The translations under genes and the position numbers were made by a program. Shown one piece after another: positions 7,469 through 27,870 of a stretch of 64,000 nt of DNA. Under the pieces are notes generated by a model. That model was not told where the DNA came from, did not search any database, and saw only the letters and a list, made by a program, of their open reading frames with translations. The DNA is from Sphingomonas sp. SUN039 (lineage in GTDB: Bacteria; Pseudomonadota; Alphaproteobacteria; Sphingomonadales; Sphingomonadaceae). Each line of letters opens with the position of its first letter. Position 1 is the stretch's first letter. The stretch covers positions 1,346,001-1,410,000 of the forward strand of contig NZ_CP096972.1 in assembly GCF_024758725.1 (NCBI RefSeq), given 5' to 3'.

Positions 7469-7532
7469 GCGCTTGGCCCTACCGCCGCATCGATGCCGAT
7501 TTCGGCGTCGACCATTATTCGAGCGCGCGAAG

Positions 7533-7745
7533 TTAGAGGGTATCCGGCGCTGTTGCTGTATATTGGTGCACATCGACTAGTTTTGCCGATCTGTGTCCGA
7601 TCACCGTGATTTGCTGGCCGAGAAAGTCGCGCGCGCTGCGGTCGATTTTCAGCGCCCATCGGACCCCATTGGCGTCTTCGAGAAAGAAGCCGTGCCGACC
7701 CGCCTTCAATCGCCCAGTGAGTTCGGTTTCGCCGGTTGCAGGCAT
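7533..7745 (-). CDS. Small DUF5818-like protein
   Basis: A 70-residue cytoplasmic protein with the pattern LTGRLKAGRHGFFLEDANG, VRWALKI and LGQQITVIGHRS. This is a small beta-barrel-like unit (OB-like repetition of G-x-V/hydrophobic strands) that I associate with DUF5818 proteins common in sphingomonads. ATG at 7745 is the only sensible start. It sits between the lytic transglycosylase and the DUF1173-like gene on the same strand. A longer overlapping frame on this strand (7459-7920) is rejected because it lacks protein-like composition. The function is unknown. Confidence 0.65.
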   Translation of the reverse strand: MPATGETELTGRLKAGRHGFFLEDANGVRWALKIDRSARDFLGQQITVIGHRSAKLVDVHQYTATAPDTL

Positions 7746-7817: not shown

Positions 7818-8771
7818 TCAAAAATTTGTGGCCCGGGCTGGCGCAAACACCAACTGCGCGTGGCGAAACAAAATCGACTGCGGCGAGCCAGGTGCAACCG
7901 TCATCGGCGCGCCCGTCCAATTCCCAATAATCGTGCGGACATAATCCTGTGTCTCGGCAATCGCGGGCACCCGCCAGCGTCGCTCGACGCGCTCTGGCCC
8001 CGCATTATAGGCCGCAAGCGCTAGATCGTAGCGACCGAACCGGTCGACATGCTGCTTGAGGTAACGTGCCCCGCCGCGCAGGTTTTCTAAGAGGGTATAG
8101 CGATCGACGCCAAGTTGCAGCGCCGTCCCCGGCATTAACTGGGCAAGGCCAAACGCTCCCTTTGGGGAAGTTACAGCGGATTGGTAGCGGCTCTCCTTCA
8201 TAATCAGTGCGTCGAAGAGCCCGACAGGCAGCCCAGCCTCGCACGCGGCGCGATGGACGAGTGGGAACAATATGCGCCGGCGTTCTTCAGCGGCGCGGCC
8301 GAATGCGAGGCTGGGCCGATACATAGGCATGACACAATCGCCGACCCCGCCAGCGGACGCGGCGGTCAGCGTGCGATCAAATGGCAGAGAATAAAGCGTG
8401 AATGGGTTTCGAAGGGCAGCTGCGCCGCTAACTGCGAACGACGTTGGCATCGATAATCGAGCAGTTTCGTTCGCATCATCAAGCGCAGCGCCGGTGAACT
8501 CGCTGGCCATTGCGCGCGCAACGTCGCTGAGTTTAGGGCTCAACATCGCTTCGGTGTTTTCCGTCGGAACAGCGCCTACCGCTGGTCGCAAGAAATCGAT
8601 CAATACGACAGTGCGATGTGCGCGCGCGTCGACCGCGGACGCTTGCGTCGTCAGAACTAGGGCTGCCAAAATTCCTGCCGGAAGTCTGAACCAGTTTAGT
8701 CGGCTGAATTGCTGCTCCGCTCCATTTCTGTTAGAAGAAAGATGGAGATTTGAAATGAGCCTCAACCCCAT
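7818..8771 (-). CDS. Lytic transglycosylase (SLT domain), VirB1-like, conjugation-associated
   Basis: A periplasmic peptidoglycan-cleaving enzyme that would open the wall for the type IV secretion channel. The SLT domain covers the C-terminal half: LFDALIMKESRYQ contains the catalytic Glu, followed by SPKGAFGLAQLMPGTA, GGARYLKQHVDRFG and the typical ALAAYNAGPERVE ending. A hydrophobic segment (LPAGILAALVLTTQASA) looks like a signal peptide. With ATG 8771, preceded by AGGG, this segment begins about 30 residues in, a long n-region. No better ATG/GTG lies closer; a TTG just before the hydrophobic core would make it too short. With this start the gene overlaps the divergent small gene at 8755 by 17 bases. 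It lies downstream of traG and is transcribed in the same direction. Confidence 0.85.
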   Translation of the reverse strand: MGLRLISNLHLSSNRNGAEQQFSRLNWFRLPAGILAALVLTTQASAVDARAHRTVVLIDFLRPAVGAVPTENTEAMLSPKLSDVARAMASEFTGAALDDANETARLSMPTSFAVSGAAALRNPFTLYSLPFDRTLTAASAGGVGDCVMPMYRPSLAFGRAAEERRRILFPLVHRAACEAGLPVGLFDALIMKESRYQSAVTSPKGAFGLAQLMPGTALQLGVDRYTLLENLRGGARYLKQHVDRFGRYDLALAAYNAGPERVERRWRVPAIAETQDYVRTIIGNWTGAPMTVAPGSPQSILFRHAQLVFAPARATNF

Positions 8772-8931
8772 GCAGGACCCTGGCAACCCAGGCAATCCGA
8801 ACAGCTTGGCTTGGAAGCGGTACCATGCTGTTACTAAGCGTTCACCAACAAGCCGGAGCGATCTCATCTGGTCAGGCGTTATTGTTGGCATTTTCGGGGT
8901 GATCATCGCGATAAACCTTTTGATTCAGTGA
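8755..8931 (+). CDS. Small single-span membrane protein, unknown
   Basis: A 58-codon frame with ATG 8755 preceded by GGAG at seven bases, an ideal ribosome-binding site. Its product has a short Pro/Gly/Asn-rich N-terminus (MQDPGNPGNPNSLAWKR) and one clear C-terminal transmembrane helix (WSGVIVGIFGVIIAINLLI). It is encoded on the strand opposite to the whole tra cluster, in the gap between traG and the lytic transglycosylase, and its first 17 bases are antisense to the probable start of the latter. A longer plus frame runs upstream to 8398, but that part is only the shadow of the transglycosylase. I do not recognise the family. Confidence 0.6.
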   Translation: MSLNPMQDPGNPGNPNSLAWKRYHAVTKRSPTSRSDLIWSGVIVGIFGVIIAINLLIQ

Positions 8932-8934
8932 CGT

Positions 8935-11900
8935 TCATCTGAGGCCCGTTGGTTTCGGATCGTATTCGATGTGCAAATGATTGCGGCTCGGATCGCGGAA
9001 CGTCTCGAACTTCACGTCGTAATCCCGACCCAGCGCGTTGCGGACGCGGTCCTGAAGTGCGCGACCCTGCGTAATCGTCAGATTGTTACCGCGAAAATCG
9101 AGGGCGTCGCCGTCAGGGTGAAGCGAACCATCCATATGGTGCCCATCGGTGCCTGAAGTGATCGTGGGAGCGGTCAGCCCCAGCGCGCGGCTTTCCGTCG
9201 CGACCGAAGCAATCGGCATCTGCATATGCTTGTCGAGGCTCGTAACAGTCACACCGGGCTTCACCCCTACGCCGTTTGCGCGAATATAGTTGGTGGCATC
9301 GAAGTGGGTGGCGTTCATCCGGTCGAGTATGGGAGCGACGAATGGCATAGTGCGCCCGAGCGGCAAATCCTGCGCCGCGCCGACATCCCCCGACAGCGCA
9401 TCGCCTTGCCGGTGGATGTAACCGTTGCTTAAATTCGTGTCGCGCTGACGACCATCCATGCGATCGTTGGCACCGCTGATCCGATCACCCACCAATGCGC
9501 TTAAACTCGTATCGCGCGAATCCCGAAGGACAATGACGTCGGGGCCAGATCCGTTGACGTCGCCGACTTGTCGGTGGCCCCACGCCTGCACATCGGCAGC
9601 ATTGGCAACCGAAGGGGCAGCGATACCGCTTGAGGCAAGGGGATCGATCGGGCCAAGCTCTCGGCGCATGTCATCGACGAACGAGCGCCGGAAGCGGTTT
9701 TCGAGGACATCGCGGGCATCGCGCTGTGGACCGATCGGCCGACCGCCGTCGAGATCGACATCTCGCATCCAGGTCGCATAGCCGGAATCGCGCAAGCTGG
9801 GGTTCCGCGCCATTTCGCTTGCGACAAAGCTCTGCCAGTTCTGGCTGTAATCGCGGCTTGTCTGAAAGCCGCCGGATTCGATGTCGCTGATCTGGCGGTC
9901 ATAGCGCTTCCCGACCTCTTCGAGACGACCGGCTTCGCGGGTGAAGGTCTCGGCCTGGGTGACGCTCGCATCACGACGGCGGGTTAGCCCTTCTAGCTCT
10001 GAGTTGCCGCTCGTCGATGCGGCGCGGAAGAAGCTCTCGCGCGAGCGTATCGCGTTGTCGCTCGTGCTTTCCGAATTGAGGAAATCCAAACCTTTTGAGA
10101 TGCGCTCGTTGACGCTGGCGCCTGACAATCTGTTACGCGATTCTTGGCTCAAGACGCTGGCATTTATGCCAGCAGTGATGCCGGGGATCGGCACGCCAAC
10201 GCCCAAATCGGCAGAGCCCTGGAGATAAGAATACCGAGCGAGTTCGTCGGCGGACCGGCGATCAAACCCATAGTCATTGACGAGGCGATCGGACCAGCTG
10301 CGCGTAAGATTCTGCGACTCGGTGATCGAATCCTGCAGCTGCCTTCCCGTCGTCGTCTCGCTGCCCCGCGAAGCTTGGACGGTCTTGAAAATTTGACTGC
10401 CAAGCGTGTTCGCCGCCGACCAGGCCTCGCTGGCATGCTCACGAGCCTGCGTCGACTGGTTCTGGAATTGGCCGACCGTCTCGCGCAGTTCGCCCAAATT
10501 GCCTTTGGTGAAACTCGGCTTCCATTCGAAACTCGAAATCGCCGGCTGCTGGTTGGTGACGACCGAGCCATCGGCATTGAGCGTCGAAATCGTGCCATTG
10601 GGCTGCCTGAACGAGAAGGCAGGCGCACCGCTCGCAAAATTGGGCTGCGCGTTCCACTGGTCGCGGCTCTGCGTGTTGACCGTGGCGTTGGCGAGGCTGG
10701 CGTTGCCATAGGCATAGTTGCCCGTCGTCGCCTCAAGCGCAGCCGCCTCGGCGGCGTTCTGGCTGGGGGCAAGAAAACTCGTCGCCTGCCCTGCAATAGC
10801 CATCGCGCCGCGGGCCATGCCTGCGGCAAGAAACGGCACCGTCGCGATCATGTAACCGGCGAGCGTTGCGGTCTCGTCGTTGATCGCGCCGATCCCGGCA
10901 AAACTGCCGAGCGACATCCCACCCGCGGCGATGGCGTTACCCGACGACAGCCCCTTGCTCAGCAGGATCATGTGAAGGACGACGTAAAGCGGTCCCCAGG
11001 CTGCCAGATAGAAAAACCCTGTCGCATAGCCTTTCAGCGCTCCGACGCCGGTGCGGGGTATCAGGAAGAGCGGAAACAGCACCGGGAACATCGCGTAAAA
11101 GACGACAGTCAATACGATGTTCAGGATCGGCACCCATTTCATCGCACCCTGTGCGATCGCCGAGTAGGTATTGCGCGTCTGCAGGTCGGCTCTCGTGGCG
11201 GCAAAGCTGTCGATCGACGAAGCCCCCGTCCCGCCCGACATATCGTCGCGCGCCTGCATGAACGCGTTGATCGCCAGGCTCTGGCGCATGATCGCGAACG
11301 CGTTGGCCGCATTGCCGGTGAACGCCTGATAAGTTACCGGAAGGTCCGCAGCGAGCTTGGCCTGTGCGACCGCATTTGCGTAATTGGGATAGAGGTGCTT
11401 CGCCCAGGGCAGGTTGAAGCCGGTCAGAAACTGCTGCCACTGAGGTGTCAGCGCAGCATAGGCGTCACGGCATGAGATGACCGCCGTTGCCGTCGTCGCC
11501 CCGGGGCCGTTGCCGTTGCGGGTCAGAAACGTCTGGAACCGCGCCGGGCTTCCCGGGCCGATATCCGCCCAGAGATCGGGCGACCGCGCGAGCGAGTCCA
11601 TCGACTTGAAGCCCATCATGACGTCGTAGAACACGCAGCGCTTCATGTGCTCGTTGATGTTGGCGGCAAATTCGGGATCGTTGATCCGGATTTGCCGGGT
11701 CTCTTCCATGAGGCGCGATCCATAGATCATCCCATTCGACGAATATTGCAGCTGCGCGGGCATCACGAACACCGTCTCGGCCTCGCGCGTCAGATAGTCG
11801 CCGACCTGGCTCGTGAAGCTCGCGATTAGCCCGAGCCCCAGTGGCACATTGGCAACAACCGACGGCGCGAGACCTGCATTGACACGGTCGGTGACCTTGA

Positions 11901-12132
11901 CCGTCACCGTCGGCACCATCAGGCACAGATAGATCAGCGTCGATTGGAGGAACCAGTTCATCCACGCCCGCCAGTCGAGATTGAACGCGACGATCAGCAG
12001 CGTGTAAATAAGTCCCATCACCAGCACGACGCGGATCAGCGATTTGTATCCGCCGCCACCGGTCCATGCCGCGACCGCGTTCATCACGTTGACGATGTAT
12101 TCGCCGCCGCCGATCGTGAAGAGTTCGAGCAT
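8935..12132 (-). CDS. traG: TraG, F-type mating-pair stabilisation protein with C-terminal M15-like domain
   Basis: A 1065-residue inner-membrane/periplasmic protein. The first ~470 residues are TraG_N: several transmembrane helices (SLIRVVLVMGLIYTLLIVAF, STLIYLCLMVP, MFPVLFPLFLIP, GFFYLAAWGPLYVVLHMILL). A long polar, partly coiled-coil region follows (about 500-960). The last ~80 residues contain TSGTDGHHMDGSLH, GDALDFRG and NHLHIEYD, the Ser-x-His/Asp and His-x-His pattern of LAS (M15-type) metallopeptidases, near residues 1003-1012 and 1052-1054. F TraG acts in pilus assembly and in mating-pair stabilisation/entry exclusion; a C-terminal peptidase is not part of the classical description as I know it. 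The gene ends the core tra operon, 37 bases after traH, with a purine-rich SD before ATG 12132. Confidence 0.92.
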   Translation of the reverse strand: MLELFTIGGGEYIVNVMNAVAAWTGGGGYKSLIRVVLVMGLIYTLLIVAFNLDWRAWMNWFLQSTLIYLCLMVPTVTVKVTDRVNAGLAPSVVANVPLGLGLIASFTSQVGDYLTREAETVFVMPAQLQYSSNGMIYGSRLMEETRQIRINDPEFAANINEHMKRCVFYDVMMGFKSMDSLARSPDLWADIGPGSPARFQTFLTRNGNGPGATTATAVISCRDAYAALTPQWQQFLTGFNLPWAKHLYPNYANAVAQAKLAADLPVTYQAFTGNAANAFAIMRQSLAINAFMQARDDMSGGTGASSIDSFAATRADLQTRNTYSAIAQGAMKWVPILNIVLTVVFYAMFPVLFPLFLIPRTGVGALKGYATGFFYLAAWGPLYVVLHMILLSKGLSSGNAIAAGGMSLGSFAGIGAINDETATLAGYMIATVPFLAAGMARGAMAIAGQATSFLAPSQNAAEAAALEATTGNYAYGNASLANATVNTQSRDQWNAQPNFASGAPAFSFRQPNGTISTLNADGSVVTNQQPAISSFEWKPSFTKGNLGELRETVGQFQNQSTQAREHASEAWSAANTLGSQIFKTVQASRGSETTTGRQLQDSITESQNLTRSWSDRLVNDYGFDRRSADELARYSYLQGSADLGVGVPIPGITAGINASVLSQESRNRLSGASVNERISKGLDFLNSESTSDNAIRSRESFFRAASTSGNSELEGLTRRRDASVTQAETFTREAGRLEEVGKRYDRQISDIESGGFQTSRDYSQNWQSFVASEMARNPSLRDSGYATWMRDVDLDGGRPIGPQRDARDVLENRFRRSFVDDMRRELGPIDPLASSGIAAPSVANAADVQAWGHRQVGDVNGSGPDVIVLRDSRDTSLSALVGDRISGANDRMDGRQRDTNLSNGYIHRQGDALSGDVGAAQDLPLGRTMPFVAPILDRMNATHFDATNYIRANGVGVKPGVTVTSLDKHMQMPIASVATESRALGLTAPTITSGTDGHHMDGSLHPDGDALDFRGNNLTITQGRALQDRVRNALGRDYDVKFETFRDPSRNHLHIEYDPKPTGLR

Positions 12133-12169: not shown

Positions 12170-13636
12170 TTACTGGAGCCCCTGCGCGTTCAGCCCGCGC
12201 GAGAAATTGAGCGCCGCCGACATGCCCGGCGACATGCTGTTCTGGAGCGTCGATTCGAGCTGTACCGTGCGATCGATGACGCGCATCGTGACTTCGACGC
12301 GCTGGGCATTGCGGATTTCGCGCTGCGCGAATTTGGCGCGGACCCCCTGGACCTGCGCCGCCCAGGCCGCCGCGCTGTTCTCGTCAGCCTTGACGAGGCT
12401 TACCTTGGCCATGTCGAACTTGCCGAGCACATCGTTCATGATCGACTGCAGGAGATCGATCGCGGTCAACTCGGCGAGCGTGTCGACCTCGCCGGTGCCC
12501 ACAATGCTCGAACGCGACGCCACCTGCACGGCAAGGATCTTGTACAGCGGCAGGCTCGCGACGTTGAGCAACGTCTTTTCGGCATCGGTGATCGCTGTAT
12601 CGGCCTGGATATGCAGCACCATGTCGAGCAGCATGGCCCGTACCCGCGGTCGGATCGCCTGATTGGTATCGATAAACAGGCGCTGCGTCCCGACGTCGAG
12701 GCATTCGGCATCGTTACACTTCAGAATATCGACCTTGACGCCCTGGTACTGGGTACCGTCGAGCAAGGCTTCGACGATCGAATCGTCGCCGGGTCCGAAC
12801 TTCTGGATGATCGTACCCTTGGTCTTGTCGGGCGAGGGCTTGGTGACCACCGTTCCGATGATCGTCATGACCATTTCCTTGAACTGCTGGTCGTATCCCT
12901 GAAATTGCGGGCTCTTGTTCAGAATATCCCAGGTAAAATTGTGCGGTTCGCCGATCAGCTGGTCCTTCATTTCGGGATTGGTGTTGGCCGCGATCGTCTG
13001 GTCGCGCTTGTCGCCATTGTTGCAGCCCTGACGGCTCGCAGCCCAGTCGGAGAACAGTCCCTGGCTGTTGCCGACCGCTTCGCAGATCGTCGAGCGCGTC
13101 GTCTCCATCTTCGGCCACAACCCGCCGACCAGCCCCTGCGCAGTCTCGCAGCTCGAAATGTTCATCTGGTTGATCTGCTGGAGCTTCTGGCTCATGTCCT
13201 TGATGACGCCCGATATCTGCGGACTGATCGCTTCGATCGCGAGCTGGAAGGCAAAGCCGATCGCATTGTTCGCGGTGGCTTTCAGCATCGCGACCAGCTC
13301 GGCGGTATTGATGAAGGAAAAGCTGCCCGCGAACAGGTCGATACCGCCGCAGCCGGCGCGCGCGTGCGGCAGCTGTAGGTTGAAGGGCTGGATCGACTTC
13401 TGCGGGAAGCGCGTCCAGATATTGCCCCCCGAATAATATCCCGCCGACTGGCCCTGGAACGCAGAGGGCCCGGTGGCATTGGCGCGGCCCCCAGCATCGT
13501 CGAAATAGGCCTGCATGTCCTGCCCGACATTGGCATGGGCTGGGGTCAGAATGCTCGCGTTGAAAGCCGCCACAAGGCCAAGCGTTGCCGCTATTCGGGC
13601 AAAGATACGCCGCGGGGTGCTGCGTAAATCGGCCAT
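12170..13636 (-). CDS. traH: TraH, F-type conjugal transfer pilus assembly protein
   Basis: A 488-residue periplasmic/outer-membrane-associated protein with an N-terminal signal peptide (IFARIAATLGLVAAFNASI...AHA). TraH-type features are the GYYSGGNIWTRFPQKSIQPF segment, the RAGCGGIDLFAGSFSFI block, and conserved Cys residues in ISSCETAQGL, STICEAVG and RQGCNNGD. TraH works with TraF and TraU/TraW/TrbC in pilus extension. Its ATG overlaps the traF stop as TGATG, so translation is coupled. Length is typical for the family (about 450-490). Confidence 0.93.
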   Translation of the reverse strand: MADLRSTPRRIFARIAATLGLVAAFNASILTPAHANVGQDMQAYFDDAGGRANATGPSAFQGQSAGYYSGGNIWTRFPQKSIQPFNLQLPHARAGCGGIDLFAGSFSFINTAELVAMLKATANNAIGFAFQLAIEAISPQISGVIKDMSQKLQQINQMNISSCETAQGLVGGLWPKMETTRSTICEAVGNSQGLFSDWAASRQGCNNGDKRDQTIAANTNPEMKDQLIGEPHNFTWDILNKSPQFQGYDQQFKEMVMTIIGTVVTKPSPDKTKGTIIQKFGPGDDSIVEALLDGTQYQGVKVDILKCNDAECLDVGTQRLFIDTNQAIRPRVRAMLLDMVLHIQADTAITDAEKTLLNVASLPLYKILAVQVASRSSIVGTGEVDTLAELTAIDLLQSIMNDVLGKFDMAKVSLVKADENSAAAWAAQVQGVRAKFAQREIRNAQRVEVTMRVIDRTVQLESTLQNSMSPGMSAALNFSRGLNAQGLQ

Positions 13637-14520
13637 CAGAAATCACTCCCGGGCTTTGTGTTGGTGAGCACGAAAATCCGGTCGATGATTTCGTCGGCGG
13701 CCATCAGCCCGGTTCCGATTGGGATCGGTCGCCGGGTCAGCGTGTCGAACAGCACAAGCGCGGGCGTGGCCTTGCCGACAAGTCCCATGCGTTCGCGCTG
13801 GCCGCTGTCGACCACATAATTGGGGAAGGTTCGACTGGGGCCGCCGTCCATCGAGACCGCAACCACCGACAGACGGTTGCTGTCGGCGACCGACTTCAGG
13901 ATCGGCGACTGGATGTCGCAGGCAGCACAGCTCTGCGCATAGAAATAAAACACGCCATAGCGCTGTGCCAGATGCGCCATCGCCGCAGTGCGGGCGGCCG
14001 AGCGATTGTCGAGCCACGCGCGCTTTCCAACCGTCGAGACCGGACGCTGCAGCGTGTAATCGACGTCGGGGTTCTGCCAGAGCGCGCGTTGCCAGACATC
14101 GGCAAAGGTCGACGACCGGTCGAGCTGCGCGCGCTGGAAGCGCACATAGGCGAGCACATTGGCTTCGGTCGGCTCAAGGATCGCGCGCGCCTTCAGCTCG
14201 TCGAGCTGATGCCCGATCGCCTTCAGCTGCGCATCTGCCGTTTGTCGCGGTGCTGCTTGCGGCAACGTTTCTCGCGGTCTGGCCTTCGGCTTGTCGCAAT
14301 AGAACCAAGTACCGAGTTTGCGACGGCAATAAAGATCGCCCCCCTGCCTTTCGTCCTCATCCCACCCGCGCTCATGCGACACAGGCGGGGCCATCGTGGC
14401 AACCTCGGTCGTCAGGGCGATCGATGACGGGTCGGCGGCTTCTTGCGCGGACAAGGGCGCGGATAACGGCATCGACGCCATGATGACGACAAGCGCAAGC
14501 TGGCGAGATCTATTCAGCAT
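13636..14520 (-). CDS. traF: TraF, F-type conjugal pilus assembly protein (thioredoxin-like)
   Basis: A 294-residue periplasmic thioredoxin-fold protein of F-type secretion systems. It has a signal peptide (LALVVIMASMPLSAPLSAQ), the TraF-type N-terminal block RGWDEDERQGGDLYCRRKLGTWFYC, and a C-terminal thioredoxin domain with YGVFYFYAQSCAACDIQ, a CxxC motif near residue 198. F-plasmid TraF generally lacks CxxC, so this one may be redox active, like TrbB. The ORF is followed by traH (1-base overlap), and its start is overlapped for 11 bases by the small wHTH-like gene. Confidence 0.9.
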   Translation of the reverse strand: MLNRSRQLALVVIMASMPLSAPLSAQEAADPSSIALTTEVATMAPPVSHERGWDEDERQGGDLYCRRKLGTWFYCDKPKARPRETLPQAAPRQTADAQLKAIGHQLDELKARAILEPTEANVLAYVRFQRAQLDRSSTFADVWQRALWQNPDVDYTLQRPVSTVGKRAWLDNRSAARTAAMAHLAQRYGVFYFYAQSCAACDIQSPILKSVADSNRLSVVAVSMDGGPSRTFPNYVVDSGQRERMGLVGKATPALVLFDTLTRRPIPIGTGLMAADEIIDRIFVLTNTKPGSDF

Positions 14521-14884
14521 CGGGACGGTCCTCTCTTATGAGCGTGACGTCGAGGAGCTTTCCGACGTCAAAAAAATAGCGATCGCGGTAGATGAGCTGG
14601 ACGATCCCGCGCGCCGCGAGCTCGGCTTTGTCGCGCGCCGCTTCGGTGGCGTGGAGCGCGATGCCATCGGTCGTCAGCCACTCGCGGTGGATCAACCGTC
14701 GCAGCGCATTCGATATGTCGCTTTCGACAAGGCTGATGTTGAACCAGCGGCCAATCTCCGCGACGACCGATGCGACGTCGCTCCCCGGACGACGGGTAAA
14801 GCAAATGACGACCGCCAGCTCGACGACCGAGATCTCGGGAATCGGTGCCAGGGCATCGATGGCCGTGACGCTCCTCGGTTCCAT
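14510..14884 (-). CDS. Hypothetical protein, possible winged-helix, within tra operon
   Basis: A 124-residue soluble protein without signal peptide or membrane span, embedded between traN and traF and coupled to both (TAATG with traN, 11-base overlap with traF). The middle (ISLVESDISNALRRLIHREWLTTDGIALHATEAARDKA) has the helix-turn-helix-wing rhythm of PadR/MarR-type winged helices: an N-terminal helix, a recognition-like helix, then a short beta turn. I do not recognise a named family. F has trbE-like small genes in this region, but those are membrane proteins, so this is not an obvious equivalent. A regulator of transfer or a structural adaptor are both possible. Confidence 0.7.
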   Translation of the reverse strand: MEPRSVTAIDALAPIPEISVVELAVVICFTRRPGSDVASVVAEIGRWFNISLVESDISNALRRLIHREWLTTDGIALHATEAARDKAELAARGIVQLIYRDRYFFDVGKLLDVTLIREDRPDAE

Positions 14885-16752
14885 TACGGCCCCCTGCGCG
14901 CATAATAGGCACGGATCCTGGCCTGGATATCGGTCATGGCAGCGGCCTCGTTGGGTACCTTCGCCGCGTCCATGAATTCCTTGTAGACCTCGGTGAAATC
15001 CATCTTGGACAGGTCGAGCGCCGCAAATTCATCGATGGTGAAGCCCGCGCAGTCAGGAGTCTTGGGCGTTCCCCAGCTTTTGCGCAGCTGGTCGCGTCCC
15101 TGCTCCTGCAGGATGCGCGTCAGCTTCGACAGGAAGCAGCACGAACTGCGGCGCTTGGTCGTGCAGATGCCGAGAAACGATTCCGAGCACCACGAGCCAA
15201 GCGTGTGACACAGACCCATACGGTCGCGGACGTCGAGCTCCATTTCCTTCGGCCCGCACAGGAACAGCGTCAGAAAGGGCGTTGCCAGCCCCGCGATCGC
15301 AGCGGGCCCTGCGGCGAGCGCGGCAAAGCCTGTCGCCACCGGAATCAGTCCCGATGTCTTGCCGGCGCAGCAATTGACCAGTCCGAAGATCGGCTTGTGG
15401 CAGCTCATCGCGGTGCCCTTGAACAGCTTGAAGTCGATGTCGCTGAACTCGCGGTTCGCCTGCGCGAGCGATTCCATCCCGACCACGGCATCCTTGAATT
15501 CGTCCGACGCCTCGCGCGTCACCGCCTCGCAATCGCCACCGATGCAATAGACATCGCCGCCGCACACGAACTGCTTGGGATCAGTCGCGCTGGCCGGAAT
15601 CGGACACGTGTAAATGCGCTCTTCGACCTTGCACGCGCCTGCTCTCGGGTCGTCGAGGCATTCGGTGCGGTCGAACCGACAGGCAGGGTTGTTGTCGAGG
15701 TCGGTGCAGTCGTTGCCGCGGGTGATCGTCTTGCACTGATAGTCGCGCTTCCACGCCCAGCAGGGCTGCGTGATCAGCGTTCCGCCCATGTCGCGCGTCT
15801 GCGGGCTGGAATCGGTGCAGACTTCCGGCCCAGTTAAGCTGCAATCGGGATCGGTCGACAGGGCCGAACAGACGCCATCGTCGCGCGCCACGGTCGTCGT
15901 GCTGCGTGTTTGCGTCGCGAAATACAGCTGGCCTGTGGCGACCGCCGGGAACGGTTGATTGGTGCCGAACGGTGTCGGTACCTGGTTCGAGCACGTGTAG
16001 CGTTGCGCGTTCCCGACCACCCGCGGTCGACAAAACTGCAGATAGGCCTGCGGGTCGCTGCCGCCGGCACCATAGACAATCTGGGTATCGCACACCGGCA
16101 GATATTCAGGAAGCGCGACGCATTGTCCTGACTGGATCATCGCCGCGAACCCTGACATCACCGGCACGCCGTTGGGTCCGAAACGATCGTCGGACACCCA
16201 ATAGTCGTAAAAAGTCTGGTCGACCGTCGTCGGCACGAGCGCGGGTGCACAGCTGCGCACCTCGTCGACGATTTTCGACCCCGAATTGCAGGTCGCCTCG
16301 AACGTCCCTGCCGAACTCGTCGACGGCGGCAACTCGACGCACTGCCCCGTCGTCCCCTGTGGATCGACACCGCGCGCATAGGTCGCGGGATCCTGGTTGA
16401 TGATCTCGCCGCGCGCGACGGTCTCGTCGACCTGGGCGGCGGGCACGACGGGACGGATCGCATTGCCGTCGATGACGAGGATGGCTCCGGGATTGGTCCG
16501 CGCCGCACCAATCCGCGCGGCTTCCAGCGCGCCGGGATTGTTTTCATAGCTTCGCTCGGGCGCGTTCGCGCCCTGATAACCCGGCAGATTGTCGATCGCT
16601 GTCTGTTCGGTTTCAGCGGTGCCTTGCGCTGCCGTCGTTGCGGCGGTGCCGAAAACTCTGGCGTCGTCGCGTACACCCTGCATCTGCGCCATTACGGGGA
16701 TCGCGGGCGACGCAAGCGCAAGCAGCAGGCCGAGGCTCAATGCGCGGCGCAT
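14884..16752 (-). CDS. traN: TraN, F-type mating-pair stabilisation outer-membrane protein
   Basis: A Cys-rich secreted protein of 622 residues from ATG 16752, which gives a clean signal peptide (ALSLGLLLALASPAIPVMAQ). TraN is the outer-membrane adhesin of F-type systems that stabilises the mating pair by contacting recipient porins. Visible are many paired cysteines (for example CNSGSKIVDEVRSC, CDTQIVYG, CSLTGPEVC, CWAWKRDYQC, FVCGGDVYCIGGDC) and the conserved C-terminal TraN block around MSCHKPIFGLVNCC and LGSWCSESFLGICTTKRRSSCC. The start overlaps the trbC stop as TGATG. The frame remains open upstream, but that part is the trbC shadow. Confidence 0.93.
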   Translation of the reverse strand: MRRALSLGLLLALASPAIPVMAQMQGVRDDARVFGTAATTAAQGTAETEQTAIDNLPGYQGANAPERSYENNPGALEAARIGAARTNPGAILVIDGNAIRPVVPAAQVDETVARGEIINQDPATYARGVDPQGTTGQCVELPPSTSSAGTFEATCNSGSKIVDEVRSCAPALVPTTVDQTFYDYWVSDDRFGPNGVPVMSGFAAMIQSGQCVALPEYLPVCDTQIVYGAGGSDPQAYLQFCRPRVVGNAQRYTCSNQVPTPFGTNQPFPAVATGQLYFATQTRSTTTVARDDGVCSALSTDPDCSLTGPEVCTDSSPQTRDMGGTLITQPCWAWKRDYQCKTITRGNDCTDLDNNPACRFDRTECLDDPRAGACKVEERIYTCPIPASATDPKQFVCGGDVYCIGGDCEAVTREASDEFKDAVVGMESLAQANREFSDIDFKLFKGTAMSCHKPIFGLVNCCAGKTSGLIPVATGFAALAAGPAAIAGLATPFLTLFLCGPKEMELDVRDRMGLCHTLGSWCSESFLGICTTKRRSSCCFLSKLTRILQEQGRDQLRKSWGTPKTPDCAGFTIDEFAALDLSKMDFTEVYKEFMDAAKVPNEAAAMTDIQARIRAYYARRGP

Positions 16753-17498
16753 CACCCACCCGAACCGAGATGCTTGAGCGCCGTTGCCGCAATCCTGGCG
16801 CCAGGTCCGCCGCCTTCCGCAAAACTTTCGAGCGCATAGGGCACCGTGACATTGCCTGCGAGCCGATCGTGCGGCGGCGTCGCGGTCTTGCAGTCGAACC
16901 CGTCGCACAGGTCGAAATCGGACGTGACAACGACGAACGCCGGCACCGTCGTCACGTTGAACGCCCGGAACAGACGAGGGTCGATGCCGATCGACTTGGC
17001 CTCCTGACCCTGGTCGACGACCCGCGCGATGCCCTGTTGGAACGCCTTGATCGAATTGCCGGGGAATCCTTGAAAGACAATGGTACCGCCGGCTTTGCTG
17101 ACATCGCGAATAAGCGGTTTGAGGCTCTCAGGCGGCATCGACAGCGAGACGAAAACGATGAACTGCGGTGCGTCGCCGGTTTGCGCCTTGCCGGTGACAT
17201 CGGCCATCATCCGGTCGAGCTCGGAGGCCCCCGGCGCTTTGCCTGCCGCATCGACGTAGCGCCGATGGTTCCCCTGACCCGTTGCCGCCGTTTCGCGCGC
17301 ATCCCCCGCCACGGCATCCGTGCGGCGCTTGATCTCGTCGACAAAGGCTTGCGCGTCGGCAGCCGTCGCATCGGCGCGCCTTTGGATCGCCTGGACGTCG
17401 AGACCTGCGAGTGGGTTGGCGCCGGTCTGGGCCAACACGGCCGCGGTGCAGAACAGGCCGACGGCGCCGCCGATGAGAAGCGTCGATTTCCGGTTCAT
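16752..17498 (-). CDS. trbC: TrbC, F-type conjugative pilus assembly protein
   Basis: A 248-residue periplasmic protein with signal peptide (STLLIGGAVGLFCTAAVLAQ). The second half is the F-type TrbC domain, a thioredoxin-like fold without CxxC: APQFIVFVSLSMPPESLKPL, GTIVFQGFPGNSIKAF, IGIDPRLFRAFNVTTVPAFVV and the ending block DRLAGNVTVPYALESFAE. F-type TrbC interacts with TraW in pilus assembly. The N-terminal part before residue 100 is charged and probably helical. The start ATG 17498 overlaps the traU stop (ATGA). Confidence 0.92.
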   Translation of the reverse strand: MNRKSTLLIGGAVGLFCTAAVLAQTGANPLAGLDVQAIQRRADATAADAQAFVDEIKRRTDAVAGDARETAATGQGNHRRYVDAAGKAPGASELDRMMADVTGKAQTGDAPQFIVFVSLSMPPESLKPLIRDVSKAGGTIVFQGFPGNSIKAFQQGIARVVDQGQEAKSIGIDPRLFRAFNVTTVPAFVVVTSDFDLCDGFDCKTATPPHDRLAGNVTVPYALESFAEGGGPGARIAATALKHLGSGG

Positions 17499-18538
17499 AG
17501 CGCGCAACAATTGCGTTTGCGCCAGACGAGATACCCGAAGTCTTCGCCGACGACCGGCCAGACCCGACCGACGCCGGGTTTGAGGTCGGAGACGCCGATC
17601 ATCGAGCAGGCGAACTTGCCTTTGACCATCGGTGACGGGTTCACCATCTGGAAGCGGTATTGCTGCTTCTTGAGGATCGGCATCGGGTATTTTTTGCAAA
17701 GGCCTTGGGCGCCCATTGTGCCCCAGGCGAGCAGCTCGCGGTGCATCTTGTAGGCCATGCGCGATGCGGCGAGGCGCGACGACTGGATGGGGTTCAGATG
17801 ATGGCCGATATTGCCGTTCATCGGATACATCGAGCCCTGGCAGCCCGCGCACCAGAACAAGGCATCGACCGGGCGCTTGACGGTCGCGGCCACGCAATCG
17901 GCGGCACAGGCGAGCGTCGCGACCGGATTGGCGAACACCGCGGCTTCCGGATTGATGAGCATCGTCAGCGTATCGTCCTGCCAGAGCGGGTCGATCTCGG
18001 TGACATAGGCAATGTCGAAGCTCGACTGCTCGAGGCAGAGAAAGTCGGCGACGATCTCCATCCAGTAGAGCAGCGGGTAGATATACCAGTGGACGTTGTA
18101 TTTGGCGGCGTTCTGCCCTGCTCCGCCGATCTGGTTGGTCGTCGTGTAGGTGCCACGCCCGATGTCGAAGCCGGGCTTGATCGAAATCCCGCCGAGATTG
18201 GGGAAGCACCAGGGCTTCACGCTCACATCGACGAGGCGGACCGGTTCCCAAAAGCCGACTGCAACGCCGATGCGCGGCACCGGATCGCCGCACAGACATA
18301 TCGGCAGCGCCGGATTATTGTCGGTATCGGGGCGCGCGCTCGGCCAGATCGGCAGTTTGCCGACCGATAACGGAAACAGGCACCCCCAACAGACGTCGGT
18401 GATCGGATTGACGAACTTGCCGGTGCACGATCCTGGCACGCCCCCCGCTTGCGCCGGGGTACTCGCGCACAGCAGAGCGAACGGCAATGCGGCGAACAAT
18501 GCCCGCCATCGCATCATGAGCGATGATGCGCACCTCAT
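17495..18538 (-). CDS. traU: TraU, F-type conjugal transfer protein
   Basis: A periplasmic protein of 347 residues with signal peptide (ALFAALPFALLCASTPAQA). It closely follows the TraU family: CTGKFVNPITDVCWGCLFPLS, CLCGDPVPRIGVAVGFWEP, KPWCFPNLGGI, VHWYIYPLLYWMEIV, DALFWCAGCQGSMYPMNG and the C-terminal MIGVSDLKPGVGRVWPVVGED. The many Cys residues fit with DsbC being encoded in the same operon. The start is taken as ATG 18538 because it overlaps the stop of the preceding small gene (ATGA); internal ATGs at codons 8-9 would also leave a signal peptide. Confidence 0.95.
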   Translation of the reverse strand: MRCASSLMMRWRALFAALPFALLCASTPAQAGGVPGSCTGKFVNPITDVCWGCLFPLSVGKLPIWPSARPDTDNNPALPICLCGDPVPRIGVAVGFWEPVRLVDVSVKPWCFPNLGGISIKPGFDIGRGTYTTTNQIGGAGQNAAKYNVHWYIYPLLYWMEIVADFLCLEQSSFDIAYVTEIDPLWQDDTLTMLINPEAAVFANPVATLACAADCVAATVKRPVDALFWCAGCQGSMYPMNGNIGHHLNPIQSSRLAASRMAYKMHRELLAWGTMGAQGLCKKYPMPILKKQQYRFQMVNPSPMVKGKFACSMIGVSDLKPGVGRVWPVVGEDFGYLVWRKRNCCAL

Positions 18539-20849: not shown

Positions 20850-21186
20850 CGACCCCTCCCGTCTTGAAGATCGAGATCAGCGACGCGCGGCGGAAAAAAC
20901 CGGTGGCAAACAGAATGATCAGAACGATGACGAATAGCTGACCATCGAAGGCTGCACGTCGCGGACCATCGGCGGCAAGGTAATGCCAGGCAAGACGTTC
21001 GACCTGCGCGAAGAAGCCGCCCACGCTGCCGTTGCCCGCCAGCGCGAACAGGACGACGAAACATCCTGCGGCGGCAAGCAACGTCGTCGCCAACCACCCG
21101 AGGAACGCCAGCGATACATACAGCAGGTCGCCCAATACGACCGGGCACGACCGCTTGACGCGCTGCAAAGGCGCAGCCGTCGCCAT
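20821..21186 (-). CDS. Membrane protein in tra operon between traC and trbI, unknown
   Basis: A 121-residue protein from ATG 21186, which overlaps the traC stop as TGATG. There are two or three hydrophobic segments (LYVSLAFLGWLATTLLAAAGCFVVLFAL and LFVIVLIILFATGFF) around a polar loop with WHYLAADGPR. The stop lies inside trbI, a 29-base overlap in another frame. The F plasmid does not have a gene I can match here. The position next to the ATPase gene suggests an inner-membrane component or accessory of the secretion machine. Confidence 0.7.
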   Translation of the reverse strand: MATAAPLQRVKRSCPVVLGDLLYVSLAFLGWLATTLLAAAGCFVVLFALAGNGSVGGFFAQVERLAWHYLAADGPRRAAFDGQLFVIVLIILFATGFFRRASLISIFKTGGVDGSRHADHS

Positions 21187-23765
21187 CACGCGGCCGCCGC
21201 CGCGCGTACGGGCTCGTCGATCACGCTCCATTGCGAAGGGTCTTGCGGATAGGCGATACGCTCGATGGCGGCCTCCATGGGCAACCCCTGCGCAACGAGC
21301 GTCTCGATCTCGGCGAAAACGCGCGGCGACGACGAATAGATCGTTGCCGAATAGGGATCGAGCACGAGCCGCCCGATCGCCAAAGTCTCCGGCCCCTTGA
21401 TCATCAGGTCGGAATATTCGACGCCGTTGCGCTTCAAGCTTCGCATCAACGCTTCGGTCGAGGCCGACATCTCGAAGCGATCGTGCTTCATGAAATCGGA
21501 AATCGATTCGGGCTTTTGCTGGAGGATGACAAACCAGTCGCTGTTCTCGAGCGCGGCCACCGATCCTTCGGACTTGTAATAGTCGTTCAGACTTTGCGTC
21601 GCGGTAACCAGCGACGCCCCGTATTTGCGACAGGTGCGCGCATAGGTTTCGACGAACTCGGCCATCGCGCCGCCGCGCAGCATCTGCCAGGCTTCGTCCA
21701 TGATCAGCGCTTTGCGCCGGGCGCGGTCCAGTTTGCGCATGCTCTGCGATGACATGAACATGATTGCGGTGAGCACGACCGAACGTAATTCCTCGCGGCT
21801 CGACAGGTCCGATAGCTCGAACACGGTCAGGTCGGCGTCGAGTTTGAAGGTCGCCTCGCCGATAAAGAATTTGCCGTAGGTGCCGCTCGAGCCGAACGGC
21901 AACATCGACACCGCCAGACTGCGCGACAGTCCGTCGCCATTCGCTTGCAAGCGCGCAATCACGTCGTCGACCGACCCGCCCCTGCCCCTTTCGTTCCAGA
22001 CAGCGTTGACCACCCCATCGATCAACCCGCGCTCGGTATCGTTCAACCGGTCGATATGGCGCGCCATCTGGCTGACCATGGCTTTGAGCATCGACAGACA
22101 ATCGAGCTTGTAGTCTTCGTCATCGGAAGCAGCGTCTTCGTCGATCATCGAAAAGGGATTGATGCAAAAGCCCGACGACAGGGTGAACTCGACGAACGCC
22201 CCGCCCTGTAGCTTGCACGAATGCTCGAAGCTGCGCCCGTCGTCGATGACGATGACGTTCGACCCGGCGCCGACAAGTGCGGCGCAAAGTTCCTGCAGGC
22301 AGACCGACTTGCCCGAGCCGGATTTGCCGAACACCGCGACATTATGATTGCCCGCGGTATTTTCGAACGGCGACCAGAAAAACGGCTCGCCGCGCCGCCC
22401 GACGAGCAACAGATGCGGGTTGTTGCTGCCCTTATACTCGCCTTGAAAGGGAGCCAAATTGGCGGCGGTCGTGGTGAGCATCGTGCGCATCCGCTTCATG
22501 CGCTCAAGGTCGCGCGCCAATCCGCTCGCAAGCGTCATGGGCAGGCAGGCCAGAAAGCCCACCATCTGCATGTATTTCTCGGATTGCAGATCCCATCCGC
22601 ACGCCTTGTACATCGACTTGAGGACACGTTCGTTTGCTTCGGTACGGCCCTTCGGGCTGAACGCGGTCACGCCGTAGAAGGCGCGCACGAGCTTGTTGCC
22701 TTGGCGCAGTTCGTCCTGAACATGCTCCCATTCGCGGCTCTGGTCCTTCAACTGCGGCAGGAAGCGCGCGGAGCGCGTATCGGCCAGACTCGAGGTCCGC
22801 ATGAATTTGTAGGACGCCTTGTTCGAGGCGGCCGTGGCATCGGGATAGACGAGGCATAACGTCGTTGCGACCGGACAGGGCAGCCGCAGCTTGTCGGTGA
22901 ACAAATCGCCGATCAGCCGCGCACAGTCCCAGGGCGCCCAGCGCGGGGGGAGGTTCCTGACGGCATAGGAGCGCACGTCGAACACATCGGGATACATCTC
23001 GCCGATCTCGGGAACACCGTCCTTGTCGACGCCGGTCGCGCGCAGGCGCTCGGTCCGAAGCTCGACGCGATCGGGATAATGGCGCAGCTCCACGTCGCGG
23101 CGCACGGCCTGGTCGGCGATCGGATCGAAGGCGTTGTAGGAGATTGGATCGTCGCCCGCCGCCGTCGTCGGCGACGTGATGTCATCGATCAGCGCGAGCA
23201 GATTAACGGGATCGATGAGACGCGCGGGAACATCGATCGCGCGGAACGCCGAAACGATCGAATCGGCAATCGCCACGAGTTCCTCGTCGCTTGCTTTGAC
23301 CCGGTCTGGCAGCCCGACGGAGACGATCAGCCGGAAGTGCCGCAAGTGAAACGGCGCGTCGCTCGACAGCGACTGCCAGACGCCGTTCGACAGATAGTCG
23401 GTGCGGTGCTTGGCCATGCGCTCGTAGACGCCTTCGGCCGAATAACGCGGCACGAACCAGTCGGAGAGCTTGGTGCCGATCCGCGACGACGCAAAATTGA
23501 TGATCTGGACGCAGGCACCTGCAGGCACGCCCTCGGACAGGCATTGCGCGATGATGTCGGCAGACCGCTCGTCGGCCCCCACCATCGGTGCCAGTTCGAG
23601 CGCGACCTCGCGGGCGCCTGCATTATGGAAGATATGCGTCTTCGCATCAAAACTGCGATACGGCAGCCAGTGCGCGAGCATCGGGATCGTCGGATCGGGC
23701 CGCGCTTGCTCGGCCCGCACGCTATCCCCGACCAGCGCGTCGAAAAGGCCGGACAGCGGCCTCAC
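21186..23765 (-). CDS. traC: TraC, F-type type IV secretion ATPase (VirB4-like)
   Basis: An 859-residue cytoplasmic ATPase energising pilus assembly. The N-terminal TraC domain (PYRSFDAKTHIFHNAG, GACVQIINFASSRIG) is followed by a central region and the AAA-like domain. That domain has Walker A GKSGSGKSVC near residues 478-487, Walker B-like IVIDDGRSFE, then KALIMDEAWQML with the DE box, and VTATQSLNDYYKSE as sensor. Length matches F TraC (about 875). The ATG overlaps the traV stop (23762-23765). It is the largest enzyme of the operon and the only motor protein in view: no TraD-type coupling ATPase is found. Confidence 0.96.
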   Translation of the reverse strand: MRPLSGLFDALVGDSVRAEQARPDPTIPMLAHWLPYRSFDAKTHIFHNAGAREVALELAPMVGADERSADIIAQCLSEGVPAGACVQIINFASSRIGTKLSDWFVPRYSAEGVYERMAKHRTDYLSNGVWQSLSSDAPFHLRHFRLIVSVGLPDRVKASDEELVAIADSIVSAFRAIDVPARLIDPVNLLALIDDITSPTTAAGDDPISYNAFDPIADQAVRRDVELRHYPDRVELRTERLRATGVDKDGVPEIGEMYPDVFDVRSYAVRNLPPRWAPWDCARLIGDLFTDKLRLPCPVATTLCLVYPDATAASNKASYKFMRTSSLADTRSARFLPQLKDQSREWEHVQDELRQGNKLVRAFYGVTAFSPKGRTEANERVLKSMYKACGWDLQSEKYMQMVGFLACLPMTLASGLARDLERMKRMRTMLTTTAANLAPFQGEYKGSNNPHLLLVGRRGEPFFWSPFENTAGNHNVAVFGKSGSGKSVCLQELCAALVGAGSNVIVIDDGRSFEHSCKLQGGAFVEFTLSSGFCINPFSMIDEDAASDDEDYKLDCLSMLKAMVSQMARHIDRLNDTERGLIDGVVNAVWNERGRGGSVDDVIARLQANGDGLSRSLAVSMLPFGSSGTYGKFFIGEATFKLDADLTVFELSDLSSREELRSVVLTAIMFMSSQSMRKLDRARRKALIMDEAWQMLRGGAMAEFVETYARTCRKYGASLVTATQSLNDYYKSEGSVAALENSDWFVILQQKPESISDFMKHDRFEMSASTEALMRSLKRNGVEYSDLMIKGPETLAIGRLVLDPYSATIYSSSPRVFAEIETLVAQGLPMEAAIERIAYPQDPSQWSVIDEPVRAAAAA

Positions 23766-25720: not shown

Positions 25721-27067
25721 TCAATTGCGGACGAAAGCGCCGTCCAGAAACACGATTTCGACATCGATGCCGGTCGGCATCTCGATGACCGGCTGATATT
25801 GTTCGGCGCGCTCAATCAGATATTTGCTGACCGTATCGGCGGCGGTGGACACGCCTTCGCCGAGGCCGCCCTGAAGGATGTCGCCGGCGCCGAGCTGCTG
25901 GCGCTTGCCGTTGACGCTGACGTTGGTGCCCTGAAGCAGGCTTTGCGTGTTTGCGGAGAAGCCGCGGCCGAACCCACCGGCGAGCCCGGCCAGAAATGCC
26001 TGGGTGATCAGGCCGCCTTCGCGACTGACGACGCGCCCGCGCACGCCCGACTTGCCGGCAAAGGCGATGAAACCCTTGACCTCGCTGACGGCATAACGAC
26101 CGCCTGGCTGCGCGCAGGTCATGCGCTGCAATTTCACATAGACTTTTTCGGATGACAGGTCGCCGCGCGCCGCCCCATTGATCAGGCACCCCTGGATCCG
26201 CGTGGTCAGCACCCGACCATTGTCGGCGACCGATCGTGCAGGTCCGGTGATACGCAGGACAACGGGCAAGGGATCGGTCTGCGACGATACGCCCGCGCTC
26301 GCATCGACACCGACGATGACGCGCGCGGTCGCAAAGCTGTTCGCGGGGAGATAGTCGGGCGAGTCCGAAAATACCGTGGTGCCGCGCTCGGCGCGTGTCG
26401 CATTGCCCCCACCTTGCCCGCTTGTAGCGAAGGAGACCGTCTTGACCTCGCGCGGCAATGGTGACGGCCCTGCCGCGCCGACCGCACCCCCGCCGGTACC
26501 CCCCGCCGTCTGATAAAGCGCAGGCGATCCGGGTCCGTAGAGCGCCGTCGGCCCTGGGACTTGCACAGGCGGTGCATTCTGCGCGGCGGCGAGCTGCGAC
26601 TTCAGCCCCTCGTTCTCGGTCTGATAGGCCGACAGCACGCGCTGGCCATCGGTCGACATGGCGCTGTTTGCGCCGCGCAGCGCGTCCATTTCCTTTTGCA
26701 TCGCTGCAAGCTGAGCGGCCTGACCATCGACGGCGCGAAGGCGATTGTCGGTCGATGCGAAACGGTTCTCCGAGCGCGCCATCCACTCCTGCTCGCTCAT
26801 ATTGCGATTGACGAGATCCCCGGTCGCGACCTTGATCTCCTTGCCATTCGCTGCTGCAGGACTGTCGGGTGTCGTGCCGCCACTGAATATCCAGAAGCTC
26901 GCGCCAAGCAGGGCGGCCCCGGCAACGCCGCCCAGAAGCAGCTGTTGCTTGCGGCGTACGCTCTCGTTCCCGGACATTGCTTCCCCAATCGGCGAGACAC
27001 TGGCATCATCGCCGACTGCCGTTGCGGCCTCTGGTCTGGGTTTGCGGAGCCGGTCGATGAGGGTCAT
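25721..27067 (-). CDS. traB: TraB, F-type conjugal transfer core-complex protein (VirB10-like)
   Basis: A 448-residue inner-membrane protein spanning to the outer membrane. Order: cytoplasmic tail, transmembrane helix (LLLGGVAGAALLGASFWIF), a coiled-coil stretch (RLRAVDGQAAQLAAMQKEMDAL), a Pro/Gly-rich linker, then the TrbI/VirB10 domain with PANSFATARVIVGVDASAGV, LPVVLRITGPA, TTRIQGCLINGAARGDLSSE, VKGFIAFAGKSGVRGRVVSR and the C-terminal VEIVFLDGAFV. With TraK (VirB9-like) and TraV (VirB7-like) it forms the core complex. ATG 27067 overlaps the traK stop (ATGA). Confidence 0.95.
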   Translation of the reverse strand: MTLIDRLRKPRPEAATAVGDDASVSPIGEAMSGNESVRRKQQLLLGGVAGAALLGASFWIFSGGTTPDSPAAANGKEIKVATGDLVNRNMSEQEWMARSENRFASTDNRLRAVDGQAAQLAAMQKEMDALRGANSAMSTDGQRVLSAYQTENEGLKSQLAAAQNAPPVQVPGPTALYGPGSPALYQTAGGTGGGAVGAAGPSPLPREVKTVSFATSGQGGGNATRAERGTTVFSDSPDYLPANSFATARVIVGVDASAGVSSQTDPLPVVLRITGPARSVADNGRVLTTRIQGCLINGAARGDLSSEKVYVKLQRMTCAQPGGRYAVSEVKGFIAFAGKSGVRGRVVSREGGLITQAFLAGLAGGFGRGFSANTQSLLQGTNVSVNGKRQQLGAGDILQGGLGEGVSTAADTVSKYLIERAEQYQPVIEMPTGIDVEIVFLDGAFVRN

Positions 27068-27870
27068 TGGCTCGCTCCCGCAGGCAGGACGATGTAAGCG
27101 GTGGTTGCAGCGCCAGGCGCGAGGGTCGGCTCGGCGATCGTGATCGCCACCGCATTCGAGGGGGCGACCACCTTTTCGGTAATGGCGACCGCCGCTTTGC
27201 CTGTGTTCTCGATGCGGATCACCTTGCCGATGAGCGTCGCGCTCCGGTATTCGGCGATCATCTGGACCTTGAGCGCGCCGACGTGGACGGCGGCGAGCAC
27301 AGGCTGGCGCATCCGGTAGCCGTCGGGAATGGTCGAGGTGTACATCGCTTGGACCAGGCGGACCGCCTGTTCCTGGGGATCGGGCACGGCTGCAATGCGG
27401 GTTTCGTCGGGCTTGTCGCCCGCAATCGCCGGATTGGCGACGAACACCTGCTGCGCTTCGGCGCCCGCCAGGCGGCACGCGAATTTATAGACATAGCCCT
27501 TTTTCGATGTCGCGAAGAACGACAGGGTTTTGGGCGCAAAGCCCTCGGGCACCGAGACATAGATGTCTCCGCGCACTGGCTCGTTGACGACCGCAAAATC
27601 CTCGTTCGGATTACCCGTCTGAAGCTTCGACACGCTGGCGATTTCGTCACCAACCAGGCTGATCCGCGTCAGATCGCGCGACGAGGCGATGCAATCGACG
27701 CGCGCATTATCCGACGCCATCACCGTCTGATCGGCAAAGGCCGGCGTCGCCAGGGCGAGCAGCGACAGCGCCATCAACCCTGCGCCGACGTAGCGGCCGC
27801 CGAGATCGAAGGGACGCGAGCACAGGATGGTGCCGCAGGCGAGCCCGCAGCCGCACAGCAACGCATTCAT
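27064..27870 (-). CDS. traK: TraK, F-type conjugal transfer secretin-like protein (VirB9-like)
   Basis: A periplasmic/outer-membrane core-complex protein of 268 residues. The signal sequence is late (LMALSLLALATPAFA ending near residue 46), behind a Cys-rich 30-residue n-region; a start further in (for example the Met of GLMALSLL) would give a normal signal peptide. The mature part has DNARVDCIASSRDLTRISLVGD, EDFAVVNEPVRGDIYVSVPE, KTLSFFATSKKGYVYKFACR and the C-terminal beta domain, as in TraK. ATG 27870 overlaps the traE stop and is chosen on coupling. Confidence 0.92.
   Translation of the reverse strand: MNALLCGCGLACGTILCSRPFDLGGRYVGAGLMALSLLALATPAFADQTVMASDNARVDCIASSRDLTRISLVGDEIASVSKLQTGNPNEDFAVVNEPVRGDIYVSVPEGFAPKTLSFFATSKKGYVYKFACRLAGAEAQQVFVANPAIAGDKPDETRIAAVPDPQEQAVRLVQAMYTSTIPDGYRMRQPVLAAVHVGALKVQMIAEYRSATLIGKVIRIENTGKAAVAITEKVVAPSNAVAITIAEPTLAPGAATTAYIVLPAGASQ

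Follow-up and report, generated by a model that had tools for sequence, protein, structure and literature searches.

In the F-type conjugation systems, the portion of TraG that follows residue 451 in F and R100 (TraG*) is periplasmic, is attached through a flexible linker, and is required both for the stabilisation of the mating pair and for entry exclusion, whose specificity in F it carries (PMC9797247); F TraG* has also been modelled as reaching into the recipient (PMC7555446). The wall enzymes of type IV secretion systems (T4SS) are separate proteins of the VirB1 type, to which TraG of pIP501 and PrgK of pCF10 must be added (PMC12857230), although the pIP501 "TraG", with its SLT and CHAP domains, is unrelated to F TraG. 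Little is understood of how conjugative DNA passes through the peptidoglycan, in particular through that of the recipient. To our knowledge, the VirB1-type enzymes account for the donor side only, and F TraG is not known to carry an enzyme domain.

The TraG of Sphingomonas sp. SUN039, encoded in the window analysed here (64,000 nucleotides, positions 1,346,001 to 1,410,000 of NZ_CP096972.1), shares with that of F and R100 the TraG_N membrane half, the operon traN-traF-traH-traG and a periplasmic C-terminal half, but it extends to 1065 residues, whereas that of F stops near residue 940 (PMC9797247). From the sequence alone, its end had been read as a peptidase of the M15/LAS type. Its predicted tail would be, like the VirB1-type proteins, pIP501 TraG and PrgK, a wall hydrolase of a conjugation machine. 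Such enzymes are already known in these machines; their fusion to an F-type TraG is apparently undescribed, as a search of the literature, covering mostly work outside the subscription journals, found no description of it. This tail, and the apparently repeated attachment of different wall enzymes at the same spot of TraG in related plasmids, suggest that TraG itself helps to open the cell wall in bacterial mating.

Layout of the periplasmic half of TraG

The tail of TraG presents H1005-x6-D1012 and H1052-x-H1054, the zinc layout of the LAS enzymes, and H999 and E1043 complete a set of six active-site residues. The motifs named in the sequence-only reading are all present: TSGTDG at residues 992-997, SLH with H1005, D1012 in GDALDFRG exactly seven residues further on, and HLH with H1052 and H1054. 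That reading had placed the domain in the last ~80 residues, for which its coordinates were right, but in the AlphaFold model the folded domain is larger, of about 115 residues (~945-1060). Beyond residue 447 the protein has no hydrophobic segment, and the model of residues 461-1065, of low confidence as a whole (mean pLDDT 63), consists of helices (~543-826), a disordered stretch (~829-942), and then the folded domain (Table 1), so that the C-terminal domain may be pictured as a wall cutter held by a tether past the end of the stalk.

Table 1. Features of traG, its C-terminal domain and the neighbouring transfer genes (positions within the window)
Feature	Position	Strand	Basis
traG, F-type mating-pair stabilisation protein, 1065 aa	8935..12132	-	TraG_N PF07916, E 2.4e-110 (Pfam); translation
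TraG_N membrane part, residues 3-462; final hydrophobic segment ends at residue 447	10747..12126	-	Pfam match and hydrophobic segments
Long helical stalk of TraG*, predicted, residues ~543-826	9655..10506	-	AlphaFold model of residues 461-1065, pLDDT mostly 70-90 there
Linker of TraG, predicted disordered, residues ~829-942	9307..9648	-	pLDDT <50, model residues 369-482
LAS/hedgehog-type zinc peptidase-like domain of TraG, residues ~945-1060	8953..9300	-	AlphaFold and Foldseek
H1005, predicted Zn ligand (= Shh H141)	9118..9120	-	invariant in 30-row alignment
D1012, predicted Zn ligand (= Shh D148)	9097..9099	-	invariant in 30-row alignment
H1054, predicted Zn ligand (= Shh H183)	8971..8973	-	29/30 rows
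E1043, predicted catalytic Glu (= Shh E177)	9004..9006	-	at least 90% conserved; role from PMC8052667
H999, one of the stacking histidines (= Shh H135)	9136..9138	-	invariant in 30-row alignment
H1052, one of the stacking histidines (= Shh H181)	8977..8979	-	invariant in 30-row alignment
SLT lytic transglycosylase gene, 28 bp downstream of traG	7818..8906	-	PF01464, E 2.4e-17
traH	12170..13636	-	PF06122, E 1.2e-105
traF	13636..14520	-	PF13728, E 4.3e-67
traN	14884..16908	-	PF06986, E 1.6e-75
traU	17495..18538	-	PF06834, E 4.6e-117
traC ATPase	21186..23765	-	PF11130, E 5.8e-137
traK	27064..27870	-	TraK_N and TraK_C
Tyrosine recombinase, possible integrase of the element	32649..33914	-	PF00589, E 3.2e-23

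Fold and family assignment

Structure prediction, proposed as a check along with the original reading, gives the tail a LAS fold. When residues 940-1065 were modelled from an alignment with 29 relatives, AlphaFold2 reached a pLDDT of 88.8 and a pTM of 0.84, with moderate confidence only in the loop around H1005 (block means 66-85). In the PDB, Foldseek placed hedgehog N-domains first (3n1o, E 1.1e-3, prob 1.00, TM 0.60; 6dmy, TM 0.64) and, next among the plausible matches, the penicillin-insensitive murein endopeptidase MepA (prob 0.69-0.82); among viral models the best was a Microviridae protein (E 2.9e-6, 34% identity). Hedgehog also ranks first in a profile search of PDB sequences (E 0.006), as it does with phmmer, the alignment being on the zinc motif.

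The family is less easily named. Compared alone with Pfam, NCBIfam and PHROGs, the tail has no family match and no significant PHROG match; the Pfam M15 models leave it unmatched even at E values up to 10 (one of the 30 relatives at E 0.13), and so does the HH_signal profile (two of 30, best E 0.18). With peptidase M15 (Pfam M15_3, VanY and others) it shares the zinc motif and the length of the domain, but no M15 Pfam model is reached, and hhalign against a set of Pfam M15_3 proteins gave E 3.6e-4 with a probability of only 37% (reversed control 0.39). With MepA (M74) it shares the LAS fold, although the sequence family is different, hhalign finding the HxH strand alone in common. As no M15 model is reached, the profile-profile match to M15_3 is no more than suggestive, and hedgehog N-domains and MepA come closest in fold, the domain fits better as a hedgehog-type member of the LAS superfamily than as a member of Pfam M15; the peptidase reading keeps its LAS part and loses its M15 label in the strict sense. 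A Pfam match to ATPgrasp_N in nine of the 30 relatives (best E 1.2e-4) was judged spurious, as it lies in the helix-strand ahead of the active site and the predicted fold is LAS.

The animal proteins of the hedgehog fold are signalling proteins, with peptidase activity unproven. The zinc ligands of Shh are H141, D148 and H183; its site further contains the stacked histidines H135 and H181, as well as E177, the residue that is catalytic in the related peptidases (PMC6027127, PMC8052667). No function is known for the published bacterial hedgehogs (PMC6027127). The tail of TraG is like the bacterial hedgehog (BacHh) and the hedgehog N-domain in its fold (TM ~0.6), its H-x6-D and HxH motifs, its catalytic Glu and its pair of stacking His, E1043, H999 and H1052 having been matched to E177, H135 and H181 by motif alignment, with a loop E1043-H1052 that is five residues longer than in Shh. 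It differs in that the calcium centre of hedgehog (Shh E90, E91, D96, E127, D130, D132) is essentially absent: in an alignment by eye, E127 corresponds to S993, D996 is the sole candidate for D130 or D132, and the stretch from E90 to D96 is unmatched. The HH_signal profile found no matches in 385 alphaproteobacterial genomes, a kind of search that does not prove absence. We know of no hedgehog-type domain in conjugation proteins so far, and the tail of TraG would place a peptidase of this type in a defined bacterial process.

Conservation and distribution of the domain

The domain was found at 63 loci in a scan of 84,980 genomes; by reading of their ORFs, these loci comprise 44 tails of TraG, 14 LysM proteins, one protein with a VgrG3-like C-terminal domain, and four fragments. 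In an alignment of 30 rows, with relatives at 27-73% identity to the SUN039 tail, four of the six active-site residues (H999, H1005, D1012, H1052) do not vary, and the other two, E1043 and H1054, are conserved to at least 90%. Conservation of the zinc ligands across relatives, another check that had been proposed, is thus found for H1005 and D1012 in every row and for H1054 in 29 of 30; in one LysM protein (L079) the last ligand is replaced by Arg (HLR). TraG* (residues 461-1065) has 47 invariant columns, 27 of which lie within its final 108 of 605 residues. Against the closest relative (L068), dN/dS is 0.086 in the tail and 0.080 in the TraG core, with the dS of the tail saturated (1.0-2.4); to judge from these ratios, the domain is under purifying selection.

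The domain also occurs away from TraG. Proteins with LysM and Hydrolase_2, by family wall-binding proteins and wall hydrolases, end in the same LAS domain, and in microviruses it stands alone in proteins of ~100 aa, with 34-38% identity over the domain and the same invariant residues. A scan of viral contigs gave one distant relative (L131).

Some of these proteins merit mention in themselves. The LysM and Hydrolase_2 family (L072-L084, L086, L033), in which the LAS domain is unannotated, is found in sphingomonad genomes and small plasmids. In Sphingomonas parva (L087:3382-4737) the VgrG3-like C-terminal domain (Pfam E 2.1e-44) is joined to the LAS domain, possibly making a two-enzyme wall hydrolase or a secreted effector. 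The hypothetical proteins of two Microviridae (L185:293-595 and L186:293-616), of ~100 aa and consisting of the domain only, have all the ligands and are candidates for unannotated endolysins; M15_3 genes of microviruses have been proposed as endolysins (PMC3394797).

Exchange of tails among TraG proteins

In four sphingomonad TraGs (L039, L056, L057, L060) roughly the same stretch is occupied by an M23 peptidase (Pfam E 1e-28 to 1e-32), and the TraG of Croceicoccus (L032) carries at the same position an M74, MepA-like peptidase (Pfam E 1e-6, or 1e-8 with the tail alone), the protein being named a murein endopeptidase in one automated annotation. M23 and M74 are known families of wall enzymes, and these tails too keep the H..D / HxH layout. 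Many sphingomonad TraGs end without any peptidase tail, and none of the TraGs sampled from other alphaproteobacterial orders has one; since tail-less TraGs exist, the F-type machine works without it.

The tree of the TraG core requires at least five changes of tail type. Descent of all M15-like tails from one origin is rejected on it (AU p 0.003), and so is the same assumption for the M23 tails. The Croceicoccus TraG (M74) and L039 (M23) form a fully supported pair of sisters; over residues 1-450 they are 80-100% identical per block of 50 residues, mostly above 92% and ~95% overall, but beyond about residue 500 their identity collapses and their tails are unrelated. This pattern of identity indicates a recent exchange that began near the junction to the periplasmic half. 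In the related plasmids, different wall-cutting enzymes appear, then, to have been repeatedly attached at the same position of TraG. Nothing speaks more strongly for a function of the wall peptidase at the end of TraG than this repeated placing, at that end, of various members of the LAS group, and what these natural swaps have kept would be the activity and not one particular enzyme.

In plasmid pNL1 (NC_002033), traG (L065:3001-7093) is interrupted by an IS630, which leaves the peptidase tail as a separate ORF of 97 aa. As pNL1 has been reported to be transferable (PMC3877037), it can probably do without the fused tail, unless transfer was measured in a differing strain or enzymes of the host make up for the loss. 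The loss of the ligands in a homologue that transfers had been named beforehand as a result that would speak against the peptidase domain; pNL1, with the tail cut off and transfer reported, is in part such a case; it counts against the tail being essential and leaves the identity of the domain untouched. In Novosphingobium olei (L088) a TraG without the tail is accompanied by a separate tail ORF.

Possible function and alternative explanations

The LAS-type peptidase reading is supported by the fold, by the conservation of the full active site, by the wall-active partners of the domain elsewhere, and by its replacement with other wall peptidases. From these computed features we infer zinc binding, catalysis, a peptidoglycan substrate and a role in mating, and with good confidence we take the tail to be a zinc endopeptidase of peptidoglycan tethered to TraG, which would cut the wall at the mating junction, most likely as a D,D-endopeptidase/carboxypeptidase of the stem peptides. 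The peptidase would hang from TraG* by its disordered linker of ~110 residues, past the long helical stalk, and during mating it would cut the cross-links of the wall locally, beside the transfer channel, the glycan strands being left to the SLT enzyme whose gene follows traG. A peptidase within TraG, which is thought to touch the inner membrane of the recipient, would be a candidate enzyme at the right place.

A bolder version, which is possible but to our mind rather doubtful, is that TraG* reaches into the mating pore on its stalk and tether to cut the recipient's peptidoglycan, with the LAS peptidase as an exchangeable cartridge (hedgehog-type, M23 or M74) that could match the wall chemistry of the partner or the exclusion type. 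If so, the cutter would be carried across by TraG*, and the machine of the donor would itself open the wall of the recipient.

The same tail could also have kept the LAS fold and the zinc site as a binding module, keeping the mating cells together through a grip on a partner protein or on peptidoglycan, in the manner of the animal hedgehogs in signalling. The nearest solved folds are indeed hedgehog N-domains, wall enzymes without activity have been suggested to serve as adhesins in some T4SSs of Gram-positive bacteria (PMC12857230), and the LysM relative with HLR has lost one of its ligands; but the catalytic Glu and both additional histidines are retained across the family, and the enzymes that replace the domain belong to known wall enzyme families and also keep the H..D / HxH layout, which makes simple binding improbable. 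That a disordered tail resembles these motifs merely by chance, as the lack of matches in Pfam, NCBIfam and PHROGs might have led one to think, is ruled out by the high-confidence fold, the invariant ligands and the independent hosts of the domain.

More unlikely than the binding module, though less so than chance, is that selection swaps the whole periplasmic half of TraG for the specificity of entry exclusion, the peptidase being carried along as a passenger and acting in the donor wall to a minor extent. It would agree with the exchange between L032 and L039, which starts near residue 500, where TraG* begins, and with the exclusion specificity that resides in F TraG* (PMC9797247); however, the peptidase is the most conserved, not the most variable, part of TraG*, holding over half of its invariant columns, and the halves that are swapped in end again in a LAS peptidase.

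The transfer operon and the surrounding element

The presence of TraG_N and the order traN-traF-traH-traG are features of the F-type, although the NCBIfam equivalog of F TraG (PRK13735) gave 288 bits against a cut-off of 600. The SLT-type transglycosylase that the sequence-only reading had seen downstream of TraG is indeed encoded there, and its homologues adjoin traG in the close relatives L034, L070 and L158. A TrwC-type relaxase (frame of 1148 aa) and a TrwB-type coupling protein lie next to each other at 1267170-1270136 (1.267-1.270 Mb) of the same 3.53-Mb contig, outside the window and ~76-79 kb before its start, so that both the relaxase and the coupling protein expected of a conjugative system (MOBF, F-type) are present in the same genome. 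The operon looks like part of a large conjugative element integrated in the chromosome, which, given the distance to this MOBF-type relaxase and its coupling protein, probably exceeds 100 kb.

Two further reading frames accompany the transfer genes. Between traN and traF (14510-14884) there is a small protein with a weak winged-helix match only (E 0.07), and many related plasmids have unnamed small ORFs at this same place; downstream of the SLT gene (6158-7573) an ORF of 471 aa has only a weak similarity to DUF1173 (E 0.019).
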